From Verrucomicrobia bacterium ADurb.Bin070 (lineage in GTDB: Bacteria; Verrucomicrobiota; Kiritimatiellia; RFP12; UBA1067), in NCBI GenBank assembly GCA_002071025.1, contig MWEJ01000003.1, positions 1-54,385 of the forward strand: 54,385 nucleotides of DNA, given 5' to 3'. Positions 43,166 through 52,855 of the stretch are shown one piece after another. The translations under genes and the position numbers were made by a program. The notes under the pieces are model-generated. The model saw nothing but the letters and a program-made list of their open reading frames with translations, was not told the origin of the DNA and made no database searches. Numbering within the stretch: position 1 is the stretch's first letter; every line of letters begins with the position of its first letter.

Positions 43166-44182
43166 ATGGAAATGCCAGTGTCGAGCCTCACCGGGCTCAC
43201 CCTGAAAGACCTGTTGGACGCGGGTCTGCACTTCGGCCACCAGACCAAACGGTGGAATCCCAAGATGAAGCGCTACATCTTTGACAAGCGCAACGGGATT
43301 CACATCATCGACCTGACCCAGACCGTCCCGCTGATTGATGAGGCCGCAAAATTCCTGCGCGACACGGTGCTGAGCGGCAAGAAAATCCTTTTCGTCGCGA
43401 CCAAAAAGCAGGCGCAAGAGGTCGTGAAAGAAGCCGCTGCCGCATGCGGCCAAAACTACATGACCGAGCGCTGGCTGGGCGGCACGCTCACCAACAACCA
43501 GACCATCCGCCGCAGCGTGCGCCGCATGCGCCAGATTGAAGCGATGGGCCGCAACAACAACGGCGTGCTGTCCGTCCACAAAAAGGAAGCGTCGAGCCTG
43601 CGCCGTGAACTGGACAAACTGCAGAAGAACCTCAGCGGCGTGGCCGACATGGAGAACAAGCCCGGCGCGCTTTTCATCATCGACATCTGCCGTGAGCAGA
43701 ACGCCGTCAAGGAGGCGCTGCGTTTGGGCATCCCGATCGTGGCGATGGTTGACACGAACGCCGATCCGGATCCGATTGACTACGTCATTCCGGGCAACGA
43801 CGATGCCGTGCGCGGCGTCAAGATGATTGCGGATGCGTTCAGCAAGGTGATCAAAGAGGCGAACGACGAGTACAGCCGGATTGCCGCAGAGCGCCAGCGC
43901 CAGCGGGAAGCCGAGCAGGCTTCTCAGGACGCGCAGGAGCGCGCGGCGCGCAAAGCGCGCAAGGACCTCGCCGGCACCGAAAGCGCTGACAAGGCCAAAG
44001 CTAAGTTGACCGAGACCCGCAAGCGCGCCGCCAAGGCCGCCAAGGACGCGGTTGACGCGAAAGCCGCTTCGGTCGAGCCTGCCGCCGCCGAGGGTGCTGT
44101 TGAAGGTGTCGCTGAAGCTGCCGTCGAGGCCGCTGCGCCGAGCACCGCCGACACCGCCGTTGCGACGCCGGCCGCCGAATAA
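43166..44182 (+). CDS. rpsB: 30S ribosomal protein S2
   Basis: The 338-residue protein contains the complete S2 core: LLDAGLHFGHQTKRWNPKMK, RNGIHIIDLTQTV, FVATKKQAQEVV, ERWLGGTLTNNQTI and IPIVAMVDTNADPDPIDYVIPGNDDA. After about residue 225 there is a 110-residue extension, first a charged helix and then Ala/Val/Pro-rich low-complexity sequence, absent from the E. coli protein (241 aa). It is followed by tsf, the standard arrangement. Confidence 0.97.
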   Translation: MEMPVSSLTGLTLKDLLDAGLHFGHQTKRWNPKMKRYIFDKRNGIHIIDLTQTVPLIDEAAKFLRDTVLSGKKILFVATKKQAQEVVKEAAAACGQNYMTERWLGGTLTNNQTIRRSVRRMRQIEAMGRNNNGVLSVHKKEASSLRRELDKLQKNLSGVADMENKPGALFIIDICREQNAVKEALRLGIPIVAMVDTNADPDPIDYVIPGNDDAVRGVKMIADAFSKVIKEANDEYSRIAAERQRQREAEQASQDAQERAARKARKDLAGTESADKAKAKLTETRKRAAKAAKDAVDAKAASVEPAAAEGAVEGVAEAAVEAAAPSTADTAVATPAAE

Positions 44183-44187
44183 TCTGC

Positions 44188-44220
44188 GGCGGGGTTGCTT
44201 GCATACCAGGCAGCCCCGCC
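44188..44220 (+). terminator. Hairpin between rpsB and tsf
   Basis: GGCGGGGTTGC (44188-44198) pairs with GCAGCCCCGCC (44210-44220). There is no T tract. It probably attenuates or stabilises the mRNA rather than ending transcription fully, which would adjust the S2 to EF-Ts ratio. Confidence 0.5.
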
Positions 44221-44252
44221 AACTATTCACCCATTCTGATTGAGGAGACCCC

Positions 44253-45110
44253 ATGGCTGTTATCACTGTTGCACTCATCAACGATCTTCGCCAGCTCACC
44301 AATGCCGGCATGATGGACTGCAAAAAGGCGCTTATCGACACCAACGGCGACACGGATGCCGCGGTCAAGATTCTGCGGGAAAAGGGTTTGGCCATCCAAG
44401 TCAAGCGCGCCGATAAAGAGTCCAAGGAAGGCACCATCAACGCCGTCTCAGCCGAGAACGGCAAGGCGTACGCGATGGCGGAAGTCAACACCGAGACCGA
44501 CTTCGTCGCAAAGACCGACAACTTCAAGGCCTTTGCCGCTCTGGTCACCCGGACGGCGCTCGAGACCGGCAAGACTTGTCCGGAGGAATTGGGCGCGGCG
44601 TTGAAAGAGCCGCTCATGACCATCGTCTCGCAGACCGGCGAGAATGTTAAAATCCGCCGGGCGGCGCATTTTGTCCAGGCGGACAACGCGCTGATCGAGT
44701 CTTACATCCACATGGGTGGCAAGGTCGGTGTGCTCGTCGAGGTTGCCGCCGGCAAGCCGGAAACGCTGACGACCGATGCGTTCAAAGAGCTGGTCCACGA
44801 CCTGGCCCTTCAAATCGCCGCCGCCGCGCCGCGCTATCTGGTCTCCGATGAGGTCCCGGCTGAGGCGATCGAGAACGAGAAAGAGATCGCGCGTAACAGT
44901 GACCGTTTCAAAGGCAAGCCGGAGAATATTGTTGAGAACGCCCTTAAAGGCATCGTCAACAAGTTCTACTCCGAGGTCTGCCTGATCAACCAGCCGTTCG
45001 TCAAGGAGCCTAAACAGTCGATCACGGATGTCGTGAAGGCGTGTGAAAAGGCCACCGGCGACGTGATCACGATCACGCGCTTCGTCCGCTTCCAGCTCGG
45101 CGCCGCCTAA
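44253..45110 (+). CDS. tsf: Elongation factor Ts
   Basis: The 285-residue protein is EF-Ts, the nucleotide exchange factor for EF-Tu. The N-terminal UBA-like domain has LRQLTNAGMMDCKKAL (about 10-25) and AVKILREKGL. The core has EVNTETDFVAKTDNF, GENVKIRRA and HMGGKVGVLVEV. The C-terminus ends ITRFVRFQLGAA. GAGGAGA precedes the start. The length is close to E. coli (283). Confidence 0.97.
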   Translation: MAVITVALINDLRQLTNAGMMDCKKALIDTNGDTDAAVKILREKGLAIQVKRADKESKEGTINAVSAENGKAYAMAEVNTETDFVAKTDNFKAFAALVTRTALETGKTCPEELGAALKEPLMTIVSQTGENVKIRRAAHFVQADNALIESYIHMGGKVGVLVEVAAGKPETLTTDAFKELVHDLALQIAAAAPRYLVSDEVPAEAIENEKEIARNSDRFKGKPENIVENALKGIVNKFYSEVCLINQPFVKEPKQSITDVVKACEKATGDVITITRFVRFQLGAA

Positions 45111-46909: not shown

Positions 46910-46945
46910 AAAGAACCTGCGCGGTGCCATAAGCGCCGCGCAGGT
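46905..46945 (-). terminator. Terminator of the zinc-finger gene, shared end with purN
   Basis: On the minus strand a 10-bp stem (46945-46936 with 46924-46915) is followed by TTCTTTTTAT at 46914-46905. The stem directly follows the purN stop and may also act on the plus strand, without a T tract. Confidence 0.7.
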
Positions 46946-46982: not shown

Positions 46983-48761
46983 TTAATCCGCCGGCTTGTC
47001 CACGTCAGCGCACGGCTCATCCGGCGCCTGGGCGTCTGCCGTCTCAACGGCCACTTCCGGCGCGGCGCCCGGCTGATCGTCTGTGGAAGGCTCGACCTCT
47101 GCGGGGGCAGGCTCAGCGGCGACCGGCGGCGGCACGGCAGGCGTTTGAGACGACGCGGCGGCTTGAGGCTGCCGCGCCACGCCCTGTTGAGCGCCGGCCT
47201 GTTTCTCGCCTGGCAACACGCGAAATGCGGGATAATCAAGCGGACCGCTCAAGACGTCGTTGTAATACTCGACCACGTGGCCGCGCTCAACCAGCCAAAC
47301 GAGTTGGACGAGCGTCTCCTTGACCTTTTCCTCGTCACCGCCAGCGATCGCGGCAATCATCTCCGCCTTGGTGCAGGCAGGATGTTCGTTGACATAGGTC
47401 AACACATCGCGTAATGCCTGAACCGTGTGCGAAGGATCCAGCGCCGCCGGCGTCTTGAGCATGACGAAGTCCTGCCCTTTGGGGTCATTCACACGGAACA
47501 GATGAAGCTTGCGGTGGCGGAAAGCCCCGCGCAGCGCGAAAAACAGCGATGCAGGAAAGCGGCGTTCGCGCAGCAGCATATCCTTCAGCGCGAAAAACAG
47601 CGGGCGACTTGACGTCTGCATGCCGACTGCCGCCGTGCAGATCAGGTGGCGCACGCTCGCGACCTGTCCCGGCAGAATTTCGCGGAGGAAAACCAACTCG
47701 GCGATATCCCGCTCCATCGCAGGCGCCTTGGGGGCCGGCTCGGCATCCGCTTCGGCGTTCGCGCCGGGTTCAGCAGCATCCGCAGCATCAACCGGCTCCG
47801 CCACGGTGGGCGACGCGCCCTTGCGACGGTAAATCTTTTTCTTGGTGCACTGCTGCCGCCATTTTTCGATGGCCTCGGGATCTCGCACGGTCTCGATGCG
47901 CGCGCGATAGGCATCCTCGGAGAAGGTCGCGTAACGGGTCCGCAGCATCTCCTGCACCTTGCCGTTGAAACTGTGGTGATTCGGCGGCCCCAACAACTCA
48001 CCGCTCATGCCGCAGCGCGCGACGCACACGAATGCGCCGGAGGGCGGCTCGCACGCCACCTCCTCCACATCAAAGAAATCATCCATGTGGCGGTTCACCA
48101 GATGCGTGCGGATCTCCTCCTCGGACAGCGCGGGCATGCCGCACACCTTGCATTGGAAGAGCGGCACCTGCTGATCCTTTAACGGTTCAATGCGGACCAG
48201 ACAGGAGGCCGGATTGTCCAAGAAGAGCCAAGCGATGTCGCGCAGAGGAAACGCACGATGCGACGTCTGAATACGGCGAATGACCGCACCCAATGCCTTC
48301 TGCTCGGGCAGCACGCGGATTTCAAGCGGCAGCGCAGGCACCTCGGGGCGATCCTGCCGCGACGGCCCGCGGAAATCACGTCGAGGCGGATAGTCACCTC
48401 CGGATTCCGGCCTGAAGCCCCCCTCGGCACGCAGTCCGCGCAGATCGGCGACAGCCGCGCGCGACTCAGGCCGCGGCATATTGCCGCCGGCAGGTCGCGG
48501 CCCGCGGTCATTGTCGCGGCGCGGTGGACGGCGGTCCGGCTTGCGGCGGTCGCGACCGTCAGCCTCCCGTGGCGCACGGCGGTCACGACCGTAATCGCGC
48601 CCTCCCCGCCGGGAATCGCCGTCATCCGCAAACCGTTCGCTCTGAAAGCGCTGGATCGTCTCCTCGGGCGACGTGCGCGCCCAGCTCGGAGCAAAGTTCA
48701 AATCCAGTACAATCCCGCCGTCGTCCTGCCCCTCAGGCTTCGCCTCTTCATTCTCGCTCAT
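46983..48761 (-). CDS. Unknown RG-rich protein with a C2H2 zinc finger
   Basis: The 592-residue cytoplasmic protein is not assigned to a known family by me. Residues about 44-135 are a disordered Arg/Gly/Asp-rich tract (RGGRDYGRDRR and similar). Residues about 140-200 look structured. CKVCGMPALSEEEIRTHLVNRH (about 203-224; C-x2-C-x12-H-x4-H) is a textbook C2H2 zinc finger spacing. A segment with GPPNHHSFNGKVQEM and RARIETVRDPEAIEKW follows, then a linker, a probable winged-helix-like C-terminal region (VQALRDVLTYVNEHPACTKAEMIAAI) and a Pro/Ala-rich tail. The composition suggests RNA or DNA binding. It has its own promoter and operator and no SD. Confidence 0.8.
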   Translation of the reverse strand: MSENEEAKPEGQDDGGIVLDLNFAPSWARTSPEETIQRFQSERFADDGDSRRGGRDYGRDRRAPREADGRDRRKPDRRPPRRDNDRGPRPAGGNMPRPESRAAVADLRGLRAEGGFRPESGGDYPPRRDFRGPSRQDRPEVPALPLEIRVLPEQKALGAVIRRIQTSHRAFPLRDIAWLFLDNPASCLVRIEPLKDQQVPLFQCKVCGMPALSEEEIRTHLVNRHMDDFFDVEEVACEPPSGAFVCVARCGMSGELLGPPNHHSFNGKVQEMLRTRYATFSEDAYRARIETVRDPEAIEKWRQQCTKKKIYRRKGASPTVAEPVDAADAAEPGANAEADAEPAPKAPAMERDIAELVFLREILPGQVASVRHLICTAAVGMQTSSRPLFFALKDMLLRERRFPASLFFALRGAFRHRKLHLFRVNDPKGQDFVMLKTPAALDPSHTVQALRDVLTYVNEHPACTKAEMIAAIAGGDEEKVKETLVQLVWLVERGHVVEYYNDVLSGPLDYPAFRVLPGEKQAGAQQGVARQPQAAASSQTPAVPPPVAAEPAPAEVEPSTDDQPGAAPEVAVETADAQAPDEPCADVDKPAD

Positions 48762-48770
48762 GGTGGTTCT

Positions 48771-48799
48771 ATGTTACCGTTTGTTTGACCGACCGGTCA
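48771..48799 (-). promoter_or_regulatory. Promoter and palindromic operator of the zinc-finger gene
   Basis: On the minus strand, TTGACC (48799-48794) and TAACAT (48776-48771) are 17 bp apart. TTGACC-GACC-GGTCAA (48784-48799) is a perfect 6-bp inverted repeat of the type bound by TetR-family repressors, and it overlaps the -35. The -10 ends 9 nt before ATG 48761, so the mRNA would have almost no leader. Confidence 0.65.
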
Positions 48800-48806
48800 A
48801 TGTGAT

Positions 48807-50759
48807 TTATGACACCTGGCCCGCCGCGACAGCGGCCAAGAGGCCGCCGTTCAGCACAATTCGTTTCTGGCGGTCGCTCAGCGCCGCCGTAGCTGTGAAC
48901 GAGGTCCCGCGCGAAGCATTCACAAACGTGACCCGACCGTCACCCGCAAGCGCCGACCGGAAAGCGTCACACGTCAGTTCGTCTCCTTTCGCGATCGCAT
49001 CGTAATCCTCCGGACGATCAAAGATAAACGGAACGATACCGAAATTGATCAGATTCGCGCAGTGAATGCGCTCGATGCTCCGCGCCAGCACCGCCTTGAC
49101 GCCCAGGTACATGGGGCACATGGCCGCATGCTCGCGGCTTGACCCCTGCCCGTAGCTTTCGCCGGCCACGATCACGACGTGGCGTCCCGCGTCACGAATC
49201 GCCGAGGCGTTCTTGAAGAACGCGGCATCGACGTGCTCAAAGACATACTTCGCGTACTGCGGCACATTCGAGCGGTACTTCAGGCGCGCGCCGGCCGGCA
49301 TGATATGGTCGGTCGTGATTTTGTCGCCGACCTTGACGACCGCCACGCCATCGAGCGTCTCGGGCAACGGCTTCCCGGCAGGGACCTCGCCGATATTCGG
49401 TCCGCGCACGATCGCCGTTTCCGGCACACCGCGTCCGGCCGTCTCGCGAAAAAGAAACATGCTATCATCCACGTCAAACGTCGCCGGCTCTTCGACACCG
49501 GCCGGGACCGCTTCACAGGCGCGCGGATCGGTGAACACGCCGGTCAGCGCCGCCGCAGCAGCAGTCTCGGGACTCACGAGAAAGATCTGCGCGCTCAGCG
49601 TACCGGAACGCCCCTCAAAATTACGGTTGCTGGTGCGCAGGCTCACGGCGTCCGTGCCGGGCGACATATGGTTGCCGATGCAGAACCCGCAGGCGTTCTC
49701 CAGAAGGCGCACGCCGGCCTGCACTAAATCGGCGAGCAGCCCTTCCTTGGCCAGCATCGCCACCACCTGCCTCGAGCCCGGTGCCACGCCGACCTCCACG
49801 TCAGGATGCACCTTGCGGCCGCGCACCATCAGGGCCACGGTCTTGAGGTCACGGTAAGACGAATTGGTGCAGGAGCCGATCAGCACCTGATTGACGCGGC
49901 GGCCGGCCAGCGAGGCGATCGAGGCGACATTCCCGGGCGAGTGCGGGCATGCCGCCATGGGCTCCACAGCACCCAGGTCGATCTCAACCGTCTGCTCGTA
50001 ATCCGCTCCGTCATCGGCCGTGAGTTCGACCCAATCCGCCTCGCGTCCCTGAGCCTCCAAAAACGCACGCGTCACGGCGTCGCTCGGAAAGACCGATGTG
50101 GTGACCCCCAGTTCCGCGCCCATATTGGTGATCGTCGCGCGCGCCGGCACGCCCAGTGTTGCAACGCCCGGCCCGGCGTACTCCAGCACGCGCCCGACAT
50201 TGCCCTTGGTTCCGAATCGCGCCAGCACAGTCAGAATCACGTCCTTCGCCGAGACGCCCGGCTGCAACGCGCCGGTCAGCAGCACCCGGGTGACCTTCGG
50301 GCAGGTCAGATAAAAAGGGCCGCCGCCCATGGCCACGGCCACGTCGATCCCGCCCGCCCCGATCGCGATCATGCCGATGCCGCCGCCGGTCGGCGTGTGC
50401 GAATCGCTGCCCAGCAGGGTGGCGCCAGGCTTGCCGAAGCGTTCCAGATGAAGCTGGTGGCAGATGCCGTTGCCCGGCCGCGAGAAAACGATGCCGTACC
50501 GCTGCGCCACGCTTTTCAAATAGGCGTGGTCATCCGCGTTTTCAAACCCGACCTGAATCGTGTTGTGATCCACATAGCTCACCGCCAGATCGGCTTTCAC
50601 GCGGTCAAGCCCCATGCTCTCAAACTGCAAGTAGGCCATCGTGCCGGTCGCGTCCTGCGTCAGGGTTTGATCGATACGGATCGCGAGTTCCTCGCCAGGG
50701 ACCAGACTGCCGGCGACCCGATGTGCCGCAAGGATCTTCTCAACAATGTTCTTCGCCAT
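48807..50759 (-). CDS. acn: Aconitate hydratase
   Basis: The 650-residue enzyme isomerises citrate and isocitrate. It carries GSDSHTPTGGGIGMIAIGAGGIDVA (described as about 110-135), the iron-sulfur ligands in GSCTNSSY and CGFCIGNH, and the swivel-domain SYGQGSSREHAAMCP. This is the shorter mitochondrial-like type (about 650) rather than the 890-residue AcnA of E. coli. I chose ATG 50759, with AGGAG 7 nt before it. It is a single gene, 46 nt upstream of the zinc-finger gene. Confidence 0.95.
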   Translation of the reverse strand: MAKNIVEKILAAHRVAGSLVPGEELAIRIDQTLTQDATGTMAYLQFESMGLDRVKADLAVSYVDHNTIQVGFENADDHAYLKSVAQRYGIVFSRPGNGICHQLHLERFGKPGATLLGSDSHTPTGGGIGMIAIGAGGIDVAVAMGGGPFYLTCPKVTRVLLTGALQPGVSAKDVILTVLARFGTKGNVGRVLEYAGPGVATLGVPARATITNMGAELGVTTSVFPSDAVTRAFLEAQGREADWVELTADDGADYEQTVEIDLGAVEPMAACPHSPGNVASIASLAGRRVNQVLIGSCTNSSYRDLKTVALMVRGRKVHPDVEVGVAPGSRQVVAMLAKEGLLADLVQAGVRLLENACGFCIGNHMSPGTDAVSLRTSNRNFEGRSGTLSAQIFLVSPETAAAAALTGVFTDPRACEAVPAGVEEPATFDVDDSMFLFRETAGRGVPETAIVRGPNIGEVPAGKPLPETLDGVAVVKVGDKITTDHIMPAGARLKYRSNVPQYAKYVFEHVDAAFFKNASAIRDAGRHVVIVAGESYGQGSSREHAAMCPMYLGVKAVLARSIERIHCANLINFGIVPFIFDRPEDYDAIAKGDELTCDAFRSALAGDGRVTFVNASRGTSFTATAALSDRQKRIVLNGGLLAAVAAGQVS

Positions 50760-50827
50760 GCGTTGCTCCTGATTGAAAGCCCGTATGGTGCATGAAATGG
50801 CGGTACGCAACAAGCCCAAACTTGGCG

Positions 50828-52855
50828 TCACCGGCCAAACACGATAAAGCAGGCATCCTGAGCCCCAAGAAAAATGGAGGCCGTTACCCGCCCGTCCGCC
50901 TCGCGGCGGACATCCGTCTCGACCCGGCCGATTTCTCCGGTCAACGGATCCCAGCGTTCGGGCACCCCCTTGCCCGTATCGCGGAAGACACAGGTCACGC
51001 GCCCTGGTTCTGTATGCTCGTTGACGAGAAAATAGACCTCATGCGTTGCCGAGCGCCGATGGACAAACCGGACCTGGAATCCCGCCGTGTCCGTCCGCCA
51101 CACCATATCCGGCGTTATGCCGGGCAGGGGGTCTGAACAGCGAGCAGACACCCTCGCCACGTCCCCCCCAGCGGTTTGCGTCAACCGTTCGGCAGCGGAC
51201 GCGTTCCCGTCTGCGGCCTCTTCCGTCAGCAGCCAGACGCGCACACCGCGCGCTGCGAGCATGCGCACGAGACGTTCATTCTCGTCATGTCGCAGCAGCG
51301 GCTCTGCGACGGCCAGCCCCGTATACTCGCGCTCCGATTCAAATAGGATCCGGCCGTTTTTGATGGACGCGGCAGCAAGCATCACGCCGTTTACGGCATC
51401 CGCCGAATAGCCGGCCAGAACGGGCAACGGGCTCTCTGCCCAGACCACAAGGTCGCCAACCGGCACGCCCTGCTGCAGCAGAAGCTGGCACCGGTGCGCA
51501 TAGAGGCAACCGTCACGCAGTGATCGGAAGGCCGTGTCGTCGCTGGGCAACGCGCCGCCGACATCCAGCAAAAGCCGCGTCGCACCGTCCGCATACAGGC
51601 CATCGAGCGCGTGCCTCCAAGGAAACGGCATCAGCACGGCGGCCGGCGAGGGTTCGACCTCGTGCGGCGCCAACCACCCCATCACCACGCGCCGCCCCAG
51701 AGTACGCGCGCCGCCAGCGGCCCGCGCATTGGCTTCGCGCGCGGCGGAGCGCGAGGCTCCGACCAGTACCGGGCGGCGGAAACGCCACGCGACCTCGACC
51801 GGATCAACGGGGGCCTGATCAATACGAATACCGGCCTCCAGGCCCGCTTCGTGCACCAGTTCATCCACCGTCTTTCCGCACCGTTCACGCCAGAGGGCGC
51901 ACACAGTCTGCGCCATGTGCTGCCGCACAAAGGCGGCCGTCGCCTCACCCCCCACCGCCACGCCGGTCCACGCCGGGAGGTACCGATTCAAACCCAGTCC
52001 GCTGCGCTTCAAAAACATTTCAGGCAAGTCAACAGCCCACGCCATGTCTGTACGAGAAAGCCCAGGCAGGAGCACCCAGAGAAGCGTGCTGCCATACGTC
52101 TGTTTCATGCGACTTTGACAGGCAAAGAGCCATTGGTTGACATGCCGGAAAAATGCCGTGCCGTCATAAGGATCGATCTGAGGCGGCTCGGCATCGACGA
52201 CGCCGAACCGATAGACCCTCCATACGCCGCCCGTCGGCAGCGACTGGGCGGACAGGTCCACCAGATGGTGCGGATGCAAATCAGTCACGCCGACGGGCAC
52301 GGCCTGGCACGTTACGCTGCGATAGGAGTCTGGCGGCGTGGCGACCCGCGGTGTCATGCGCGACACGCCGTCTGAATCAGGCCGCACGGTTTCTGCGGAC
52401 CAGACCCATTTCTTTGCGCGCGGCGCGGATTCCGCCTCGTTCTGCGAGATGAAAAAATCAGTGAGTCCCGCCTCGAGCCCCAACTGGCGCGCGCGGCCCA
52501 GCGCGCGCGTCACCCCCTCCCACACCGCTTCGTCTGCCGTCGGCACGGCGAGAAGAACGCCGCCGGCGCCGATATCGCGCGCCCGTTCAAGCTGGCGTCC
52601 CACGCCCTCCCCCAAGAGCCCCTCGCGGTCTGCGGCGAGCGCAATGCAGGGACGAGCCGCATTCGGCGGCGGCGCACGGAACTGCTCGTCGAGTTCCATC
52701 CCGCATGCGTTCACCGCCAACGCACAGCTTAACAGCGTGAAGCATGAACATGAGCCCGTCAAGTTGACCGTCATGCCGCCGACTTTAACATACTCGGCCG
52801 ATATCCGCCACAGCGACAGCATGCCCCCCACATAAAAAAAATCAAAATCAATCAT
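50828..52855 (-). CDS. Secreted GH106-like/unclassified glycoside hydrolase-like protein
   Basis: The frame gives 675 residues from ATG 52855, which has AAGGAG directly upstream. A signal-peptide-like TVNLTGSCSCFTLLSCALAVNAC begins at the internal ATG 52774, which has only a weak SD; the true start is uncertain and I give the longer form. The mature part has a TIM-barrel-like LERARDIGAGGVLLAVPT and RQLGLEAGLTDFF, and late phrases (HEVYFLVNEHTEPGRVTC, ERWDPLTGEIGRV) resemble those in GH106-type proteins. It shares this ending style with the protein at 5516-9634, but identity is low. Catalytic residues cannot be assigned. Confidence 0.6.
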   Translation of the reverse strand: MIDFDFFYVGGMLSLWRISAEYVKVGGMTVNLTGSCSCFTLLSCALAVNACGMELDEQFRAPPPNAARPCIALAADREGLLGEGVGRQLERARDIGAGGVLLAVPTADEAVWEGVTRALGRARQLGLEAGLTDFFISQNEAESAPRAKKWVWSAETVRPDSDGVSRMTPRVATPPDSYRSVTCQAVPVGVTDLHPHHLVDLSAQSLPTGGVWRVYRFGVVDAEPPQIDPYDGTAFFRHVNQWLFACQSRMKQTYGSTLLWVLLPGLSRTDMAWAVDLPEMFLKRSGLGLNRYLPAWTGVAVGGEATAAFVRQHMAQTVCALWRERCGKTVDELVHEAGLEAGIRIDQAPVDPVEVAWRFRRPVLVGASRSAAREANARAAGGARTLGRRVVMGWLAPHEVEPSPAAVLMPFPWRHALDGLYADGATRLLLDVGGALPSDDTAFRSLRDGCLYAHRCQLLLQQGVPVGDLVVWAESPLPVLAGYSADAVNGVMLAAASIKNGRILFESEREYTGLAVAEPLLRHDENERLVRMLAARGVRVWLLTEEAADGNASAAERLTQTAGGDVARVSARCSDPLPGITPDMVWRTDTAGFQVRFVHRRSATHEVYFLVNEHTEPGRVTCVFRDTGKGVPERWDPLTGEIGRVETDVRREADGRVTASIFLGAQDACFIVFGR

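Follow-up and report, generated by a model that had tools for sequence, protein, structure and literature searches.

The 54,385-nucleotide stretch of contig MWEJ01000003.1 that we analysed (the window), from Verrucomicrobia bacterium ADurb.Bin070, contains on its reverse strand an open reading frame at positions 46983..48761 that starts with ATG and encodes a protein of 592 residues. This protein carries what looks like a classical C2H2 zinc finger, and its gene lies behind a promoter with a palindrome over the -35 hexamer. The locus raises the question of whether we are dealing with a zinc-finger repressor and its operator or with something else. The initial annotation saw in it an undescribed regulatory or RNA-binding system; the family is indeed undescribed, but the operator and regulator part of that proposal did not hold.

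The gene is real and strongly conserved. Its start ATG is identical in close relatives, and the family is present in 58 of 60 related genomes, nearly always as one copy. Searches of Pfam, NCBIfam and the PDB sequences with the 592-residue protein returned nothing above chance, and 29 members from two lineages gave no family match in the same collections. The N-domain and the C-domain, searched apart, also found nothing above chance in the libraries searched, and literature searches found no paper about the family. Judged by these libraries, the protein is a member of an undescribed and unnamed family; as far as Pfam, NCBIfam and the PDB sequences go, the initial annotation was right to place it in no recognised family.

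Profile searches show the family to be near-universal and single-copy in Kiritimatiellia, the class of this organism, where nearly every genome sampled has it. The phylum-wide search, which was run with the N-domain alignment, extends it to many families of a second lineage, which we take to be Verrucomicrobiia with Opitutaceae- and Akkermansiaceae-like genomes (genome G150 is presumably Opitutus terrae PB90-1, and genus g74 of family f38 is probably Akkermansia); in several other families of the phylum (f36, f39, f42-f44) the profile searches did not find the protein. The homologue loci from a species-wide collection are titled Kiritimatiellae, Pontiella, Lentisphaerae and Verrucomicrobia. 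One complete genome of 4.3 Mb (G076, in f40, the family of the Opitutus-like genome) has no family match while its relatives have one, possibly a real loss. A MAG titled Akkermansia muciniphila (L041) has a copy that is 58% identical to the 592-residue protein and groups with Kiritimatiellae loci; going by this copy, the title looks wrong. A phage-borne or otherwise mobile gene is unlikely, because no relative of the protein is encoded on the viral contigs searched. The PVC superphylum signature protein CT421.2, of about 53-80 residues, occurs in all four main PVC phyla (PMC3444138). It too is a lineage-restricted PVC-group protein of unknown function; however, the members of the present family have about 430-780 residues and were found here in Verrucomicrobiota only.

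From the N to the C terminus the protein consists of an FxPxW motif, an Arg-rich tract, the N-domain, an acidic linker, the C-domain and an acidic tail, all encoded on the reverse strand. The motif, LDLNFAPSWARTSPE (residues 19-33; 48663..48707), includes W27, which is invariant in 29/29 rows of the two-lineage alignment A4; the Trp is present in 74 of 78 homologues from the organism's own class. The tract that follows (residues 34-140; 48342..48662), probably disordered according to its composition and alignment, is 26% Arg, 13% Gly, 13% Asp and 12% Pro, with a net charge of +8. Across the family the Arg fraction has a median of 0.28, and the net charge, over 74 homologues, again has one of +8; the Arg-rich character is present throughout the two-lineage alignment. 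What had been called an Arg/Gly tract thus exists as an Arg-rich stretch, but with a single RGG the term Arg-rich fits it better. We rejected an assignment to the RGG-box RNA-binding proteins, because instead of repeated RGG there is this one copy, and Arg is accompanied by Asp, Gly and Pro. At the other end, the Ala/Pro/Glu tail (residues 513-592; 46986..47225), delimited by composition and alignment, is variable, and many homologues are without it.

An AlphaFold model computed on an alignment of 76 homologues has a pLDDT of 89.7 over residues 138-520, with values of 88-90 for the N-domain (residues 141-316; 47814..48341) and mostly above 90 for the C-domain (residues 351-512; 47226..47711). 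The N-domain is predicted to be alpha/beta, and as a whole it has no solved-structure match in Foldseek (best E 0.098, with high rmsd). Its matches are mainly zinc fingers, and their rmsd is high unless the comparison is restricted to the finger. As modelled, the N-domain is a fold without a PDB match, with the finger embedded in it. The model, Foldseek and PHROG suggest that the C-domain likely consists of two tandem winged-helix modules, an assignment to a fold class and not to a family; the winged-helix-like C-terminal region suspected at the outset is in this way backed by structure prediction. The Foldseek neighbours of the C-domain are MukE, ScpB, ESCRT-II, MarR, Zur and RNase R, all with E >0.1, and PHROG transcription regulators match weakly at residues 445-489.

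The finger (residues 202-225; 48087..48158) reads C204-x2-C207-x12-H220-x4-H225 and is modelled as a beta-hairpin with both His on the next helix; it superposes on a ZFY finger with 0.8 A over 25 residues (Foldseek). Residues 204-225 thus combine the spacing C-x2-4-C-x12-H-x3-5-H with the hairpin and helix of the classical fold. None of the four ligands varies among 17 aligned relatives, and 70 of the 78 own-class homologues have the complete set, a degree of conservation that, at the level of sequence, is far beyond that of a chance pattern. The classical C2H2 pattern noted in the initial annotation appears to be a genuine eukaryotic-type finger. It shares ligand spacing and beta-beta-alpha geometry with the C2H2 fingers of eukaryotes (zf-C2H2; ZFY, CTCF), but it is single and embedded, has Ala at the usual aromatic position, and stays below the Pfam cut-off (zf-C2H2 has no match in the genome at E <= 0.001, nor in the protein at E <= 10). 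Among bacterial proteins, the short alphaproteobacterial Ros holds its ligands C79, C82, H92 and H97, with nine residues between the pairs, in a 58-residue beta-beta-beta-alpha-alpha domain, and Ros/MucR members that lost zinc yet kept function are known, such as Ml5 of Mesorhizobium loti (PMC9779718). The likeness lies in the bacterial C2H2 finger and in the existence of zinc-less members in Ros/MucR too, whereas the protein studied here has a classical beta-beta-alpha finger within a larger domain, and winged helices. Because the spacing is x12 and not x9, and neither Pfam nor NCBIfam gave a match under that name, we reject membership in Ros/MucR.

The finger is nevertheless not the defining feature that it was taken for. 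The remaining 8 of the 78 own-class homologues each lack both Cys, none of them just one, and these eight sequences form two well-supported clades on the tree (the root is open). The full ligand set is also absent in 18/18 second-lineage homologues examined; these often retain one or both His and commonly have Asp where the second Cys would be, and a different metal site could exist in them. Loss of the Cys/His residues in homologues, which the initial annotation had named as evidence against its own reading, is therefore found in two own-class clades and throughout the second-lineage sequences examined, but not in close relatives. Joint loss of both Cys is as predicted for a metal site; it argues for a metal role, and no more. 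Because the ligands are lost as a set while the remainder of the protein stays, the finger, which presumably holds zinc, appears to be a real but dispensable part of the family and not what the family is kept for. More strictly conserved than the finger ligands are the motif GPPNxH (GPPNHH in this protein; residues 258-263; 47973..47990) and C250 shortly ahead of it. H263 of this motif is kept in 78/78 own-class sequences and in 29/29 two-lineage rows; C250 is kept in >90% of sequences and missing in the GSQH clade. Sequence comparison thus points to FxPxW, the Arg-rich tract, the C...GPPNxH site and the winged-helix C-domain as the universal, family-defining parts.

Beyond close genera the gene has no fixed neighbourhood, as expected for a housekeeping gene. 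An aconitase-like gene (48807-50831, reverse strand) lies 45 nt upstream on the same strand and adjoins the family gene in 14 of 80 loci, and a convergent purN-like gene lies downstream in 9-10 loci; both stay only among close genera, and we rejected them as operon partners. In the second lineage, none of the neighbours is widely shared. An open reading frame on the opposite strand (47646-48182, forward) can be followed, uninterrupted and with a similar sequence, through 33 loci; since it lies wholly over a conserved coding region, the conservation of that region most likely accounts for it. Elsewhere in the window, rpsB and then tsf are found at 43166-45110 on the forward strand, and the S2 protein has a long Ala-rich C-terminal extension.

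Our preferred explanation, to which we give an even chance, is that the protein binds nucleic acid in a housekeeping role and belongs to an undescribed family common to two lineages of Verrucomicrobiota. Its single-copy, near-universal spread without a fixed neighbourhood fits this explanation, as do the Arg-rich tract in all members, the classical finger and the winged helices of a high-confidence model, the weak PHROG regulator matches within the winged-helix part, the gene's own conserved promoter and terminator, and the lack of viral copies. However, none of the domains has an above-threshold sequence or fold match to a proven nucleic-acid binder, the net charge of the core domains is small (+3 and +1), many members have lost the finger and kept the remainder, and winged helices also act as pure protein-protein modules (ESCRT-II, MukE, ScpB). 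In such a protein the Arg-rich tract would provide unspecific affinity for RNA or DNA, and the invariant FxPxW, on a flexible tether of about 100 residues, may dock the protein on a partner. The folded N-domain would carry the conserved C...GPPNxH site and, in most own-class members, be stiffened by the zinc-bound beta-beta-alpha finger, while the tandem winged helices could provide a further surface that contacts nucleic acid or a partner. We judge association with RNA or the ribosome to be more likely than promoter-specific DNA binding. A bolder version may also be right, although the odds lie somewhat against it: the protein would bind RNA or the ribosome as a core factor at the level of the phylum and have a fold outside the PDB, and its embedded eukaryote-type finger would have been gained or lost whole several times while the surrounding domain stayed constant.

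A narrower form of the housekeeping explanation makes the protein a ribosome- or translation-associated factor, with a function in assembly, hibernation or the initiation of leaderless mRNAs. The housekeeping spread and the Arg-rich tail would suit such a factor, the finger region weakly matches a C2H2 protein of PDB 6skg (profile E 0.43), which we take to be an archaeal ribosome, and the winged helices match RNase R in its complex with a 30S intermediate, at E 1.2 and an rmsd of 1.7 A. However, all these matches are below significance and the recurrent neighbours that we found are not ribosomal genes, and we think this specific role unlikely.

The promoter of the gene, TTGACC-18 nt-TAACAT, has its -35 hexamer at 48795..48800 and its -10 hexamer at 48771..48776 (both reverse strand). 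The -10 ends 9 nt before the ATG and no Shine-Dalgarno sequence is present, whereas the neighbours tsf and the 50828 reading frame have one. A score of at least 9 of 12 for this promoter is reached by 25 of 76 upstream regions and by 1.7% of shuffles; in all 25 the -10 ends 6-10 nt before the ATG, in 16 of them exactly 9. The 25 loci are mostly near relatives of the locus studied here, and among the 76 upstream regions those from the Pontiella group and from elsewhere in the class have no such promoter. About 37 nt past the stop codon an intrinsic terminator (46915..46945, reverse strand), with 10-bp G+C-rich arms followed by TCTTTTT, folds to -28.6 kcal/mol (z -6.6). Because the promoter geometry is conserved and the terminator strong, transcription of the gene is most likely monocistronic and the mRNA leaderless or nearly so. 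The leaderless mRNA proposed in the initial annotation is thus supported, at the sequence level, across related genera.

The palindrome is a different matter. A perfect inverted repeat, TTGACCGGTCGGTCAA, does contain the -35, as had been claimed, but it occupies positions 48785..48800 and not 48784-48799. An alternative explanation of the locus is that the protein is a sequence-specific transcription repressor that binds this repeat on its own -35. In its favor, the repeat is exact (spacer-shuffle probability 0.0026), three close genera retain it as TGACCGNNCGGTCA with constant arms and a varying centre (shuffle P 0 to 0.009), and a protein that has a zinc finger as well as winged helices is suited to DNA binding. 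However, those three genera are the only ones: the repeat was not found in the other genera that have the promoter, whose -35 and -10 are kept far more widely. The sequence TTGACCNNNNGGTCAA has two sites in the 4.4-Mb genome including this one (compositional chance estimate about 0.2), the near-universal single-copy spread comes with no linked target gene, and the operator, if there is one, may belong to another regulator. These observations speak against the repressor-type operator system initially proposed, and we regard a self-binding repressor as rather improbable. A local operator in the three-genus group is possible; a regulon of the 592-residue protein is not indicated, and with two genome sites and no retention beyond three genera we rejected a palindrome regulon.

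The strictness with which H263, and nearly so C250, are kept in both lineages could also mean that the protein is a metal-dependent enzyme, with C250 and GPPN-x-H263 as its active site and the winged helices as accessory parts. This has a small chance of being right: there is no match to an enzyme fold or family, the GSQH clade does without C250, and conserved acidic residues that could form a catalytic set are not apparent. Very improbable is a chromosome-structuring protein acting like the tandem-winged-helix (kite) partners ScpB and MukE, or a replacement for ScpB, since the likeness of the modelled C-domain to ScpB, MukE, ESCRT-II Vps22/25 and Pol III C34, two winged-helix-like modules in a row, comes with no sequence similarity and with Foldseek E-values all >0.1, a true ScpB is encoded elsewhere in the genome and in 18/20 relatives, and profile-profile comparison with the ScpB of these genomes was negative (hhalign probability 0.1%).

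The novelty of the family lies in the N-domain and the behaviour of its finger, and it is not yet a nameable new kind of system. The family provides a bacterial example of a classical C2H2 finger outside Ros/MucR, with a clear joint loss of ligands inside a constant domain; if the finger was indeed gained or lost as proposed, the family would display, as a natural series, how bacteria come to dispense with a zinc finger. The conserved leaderless promoter is one to test in this group. A one-copy protein that is kept by nearly the whole class and by many families of another lineage, and that is missing from Pfam and NCBIfam, marks a gap in what is known of the core biology of these bacteria, apparently Akkermansia among them.
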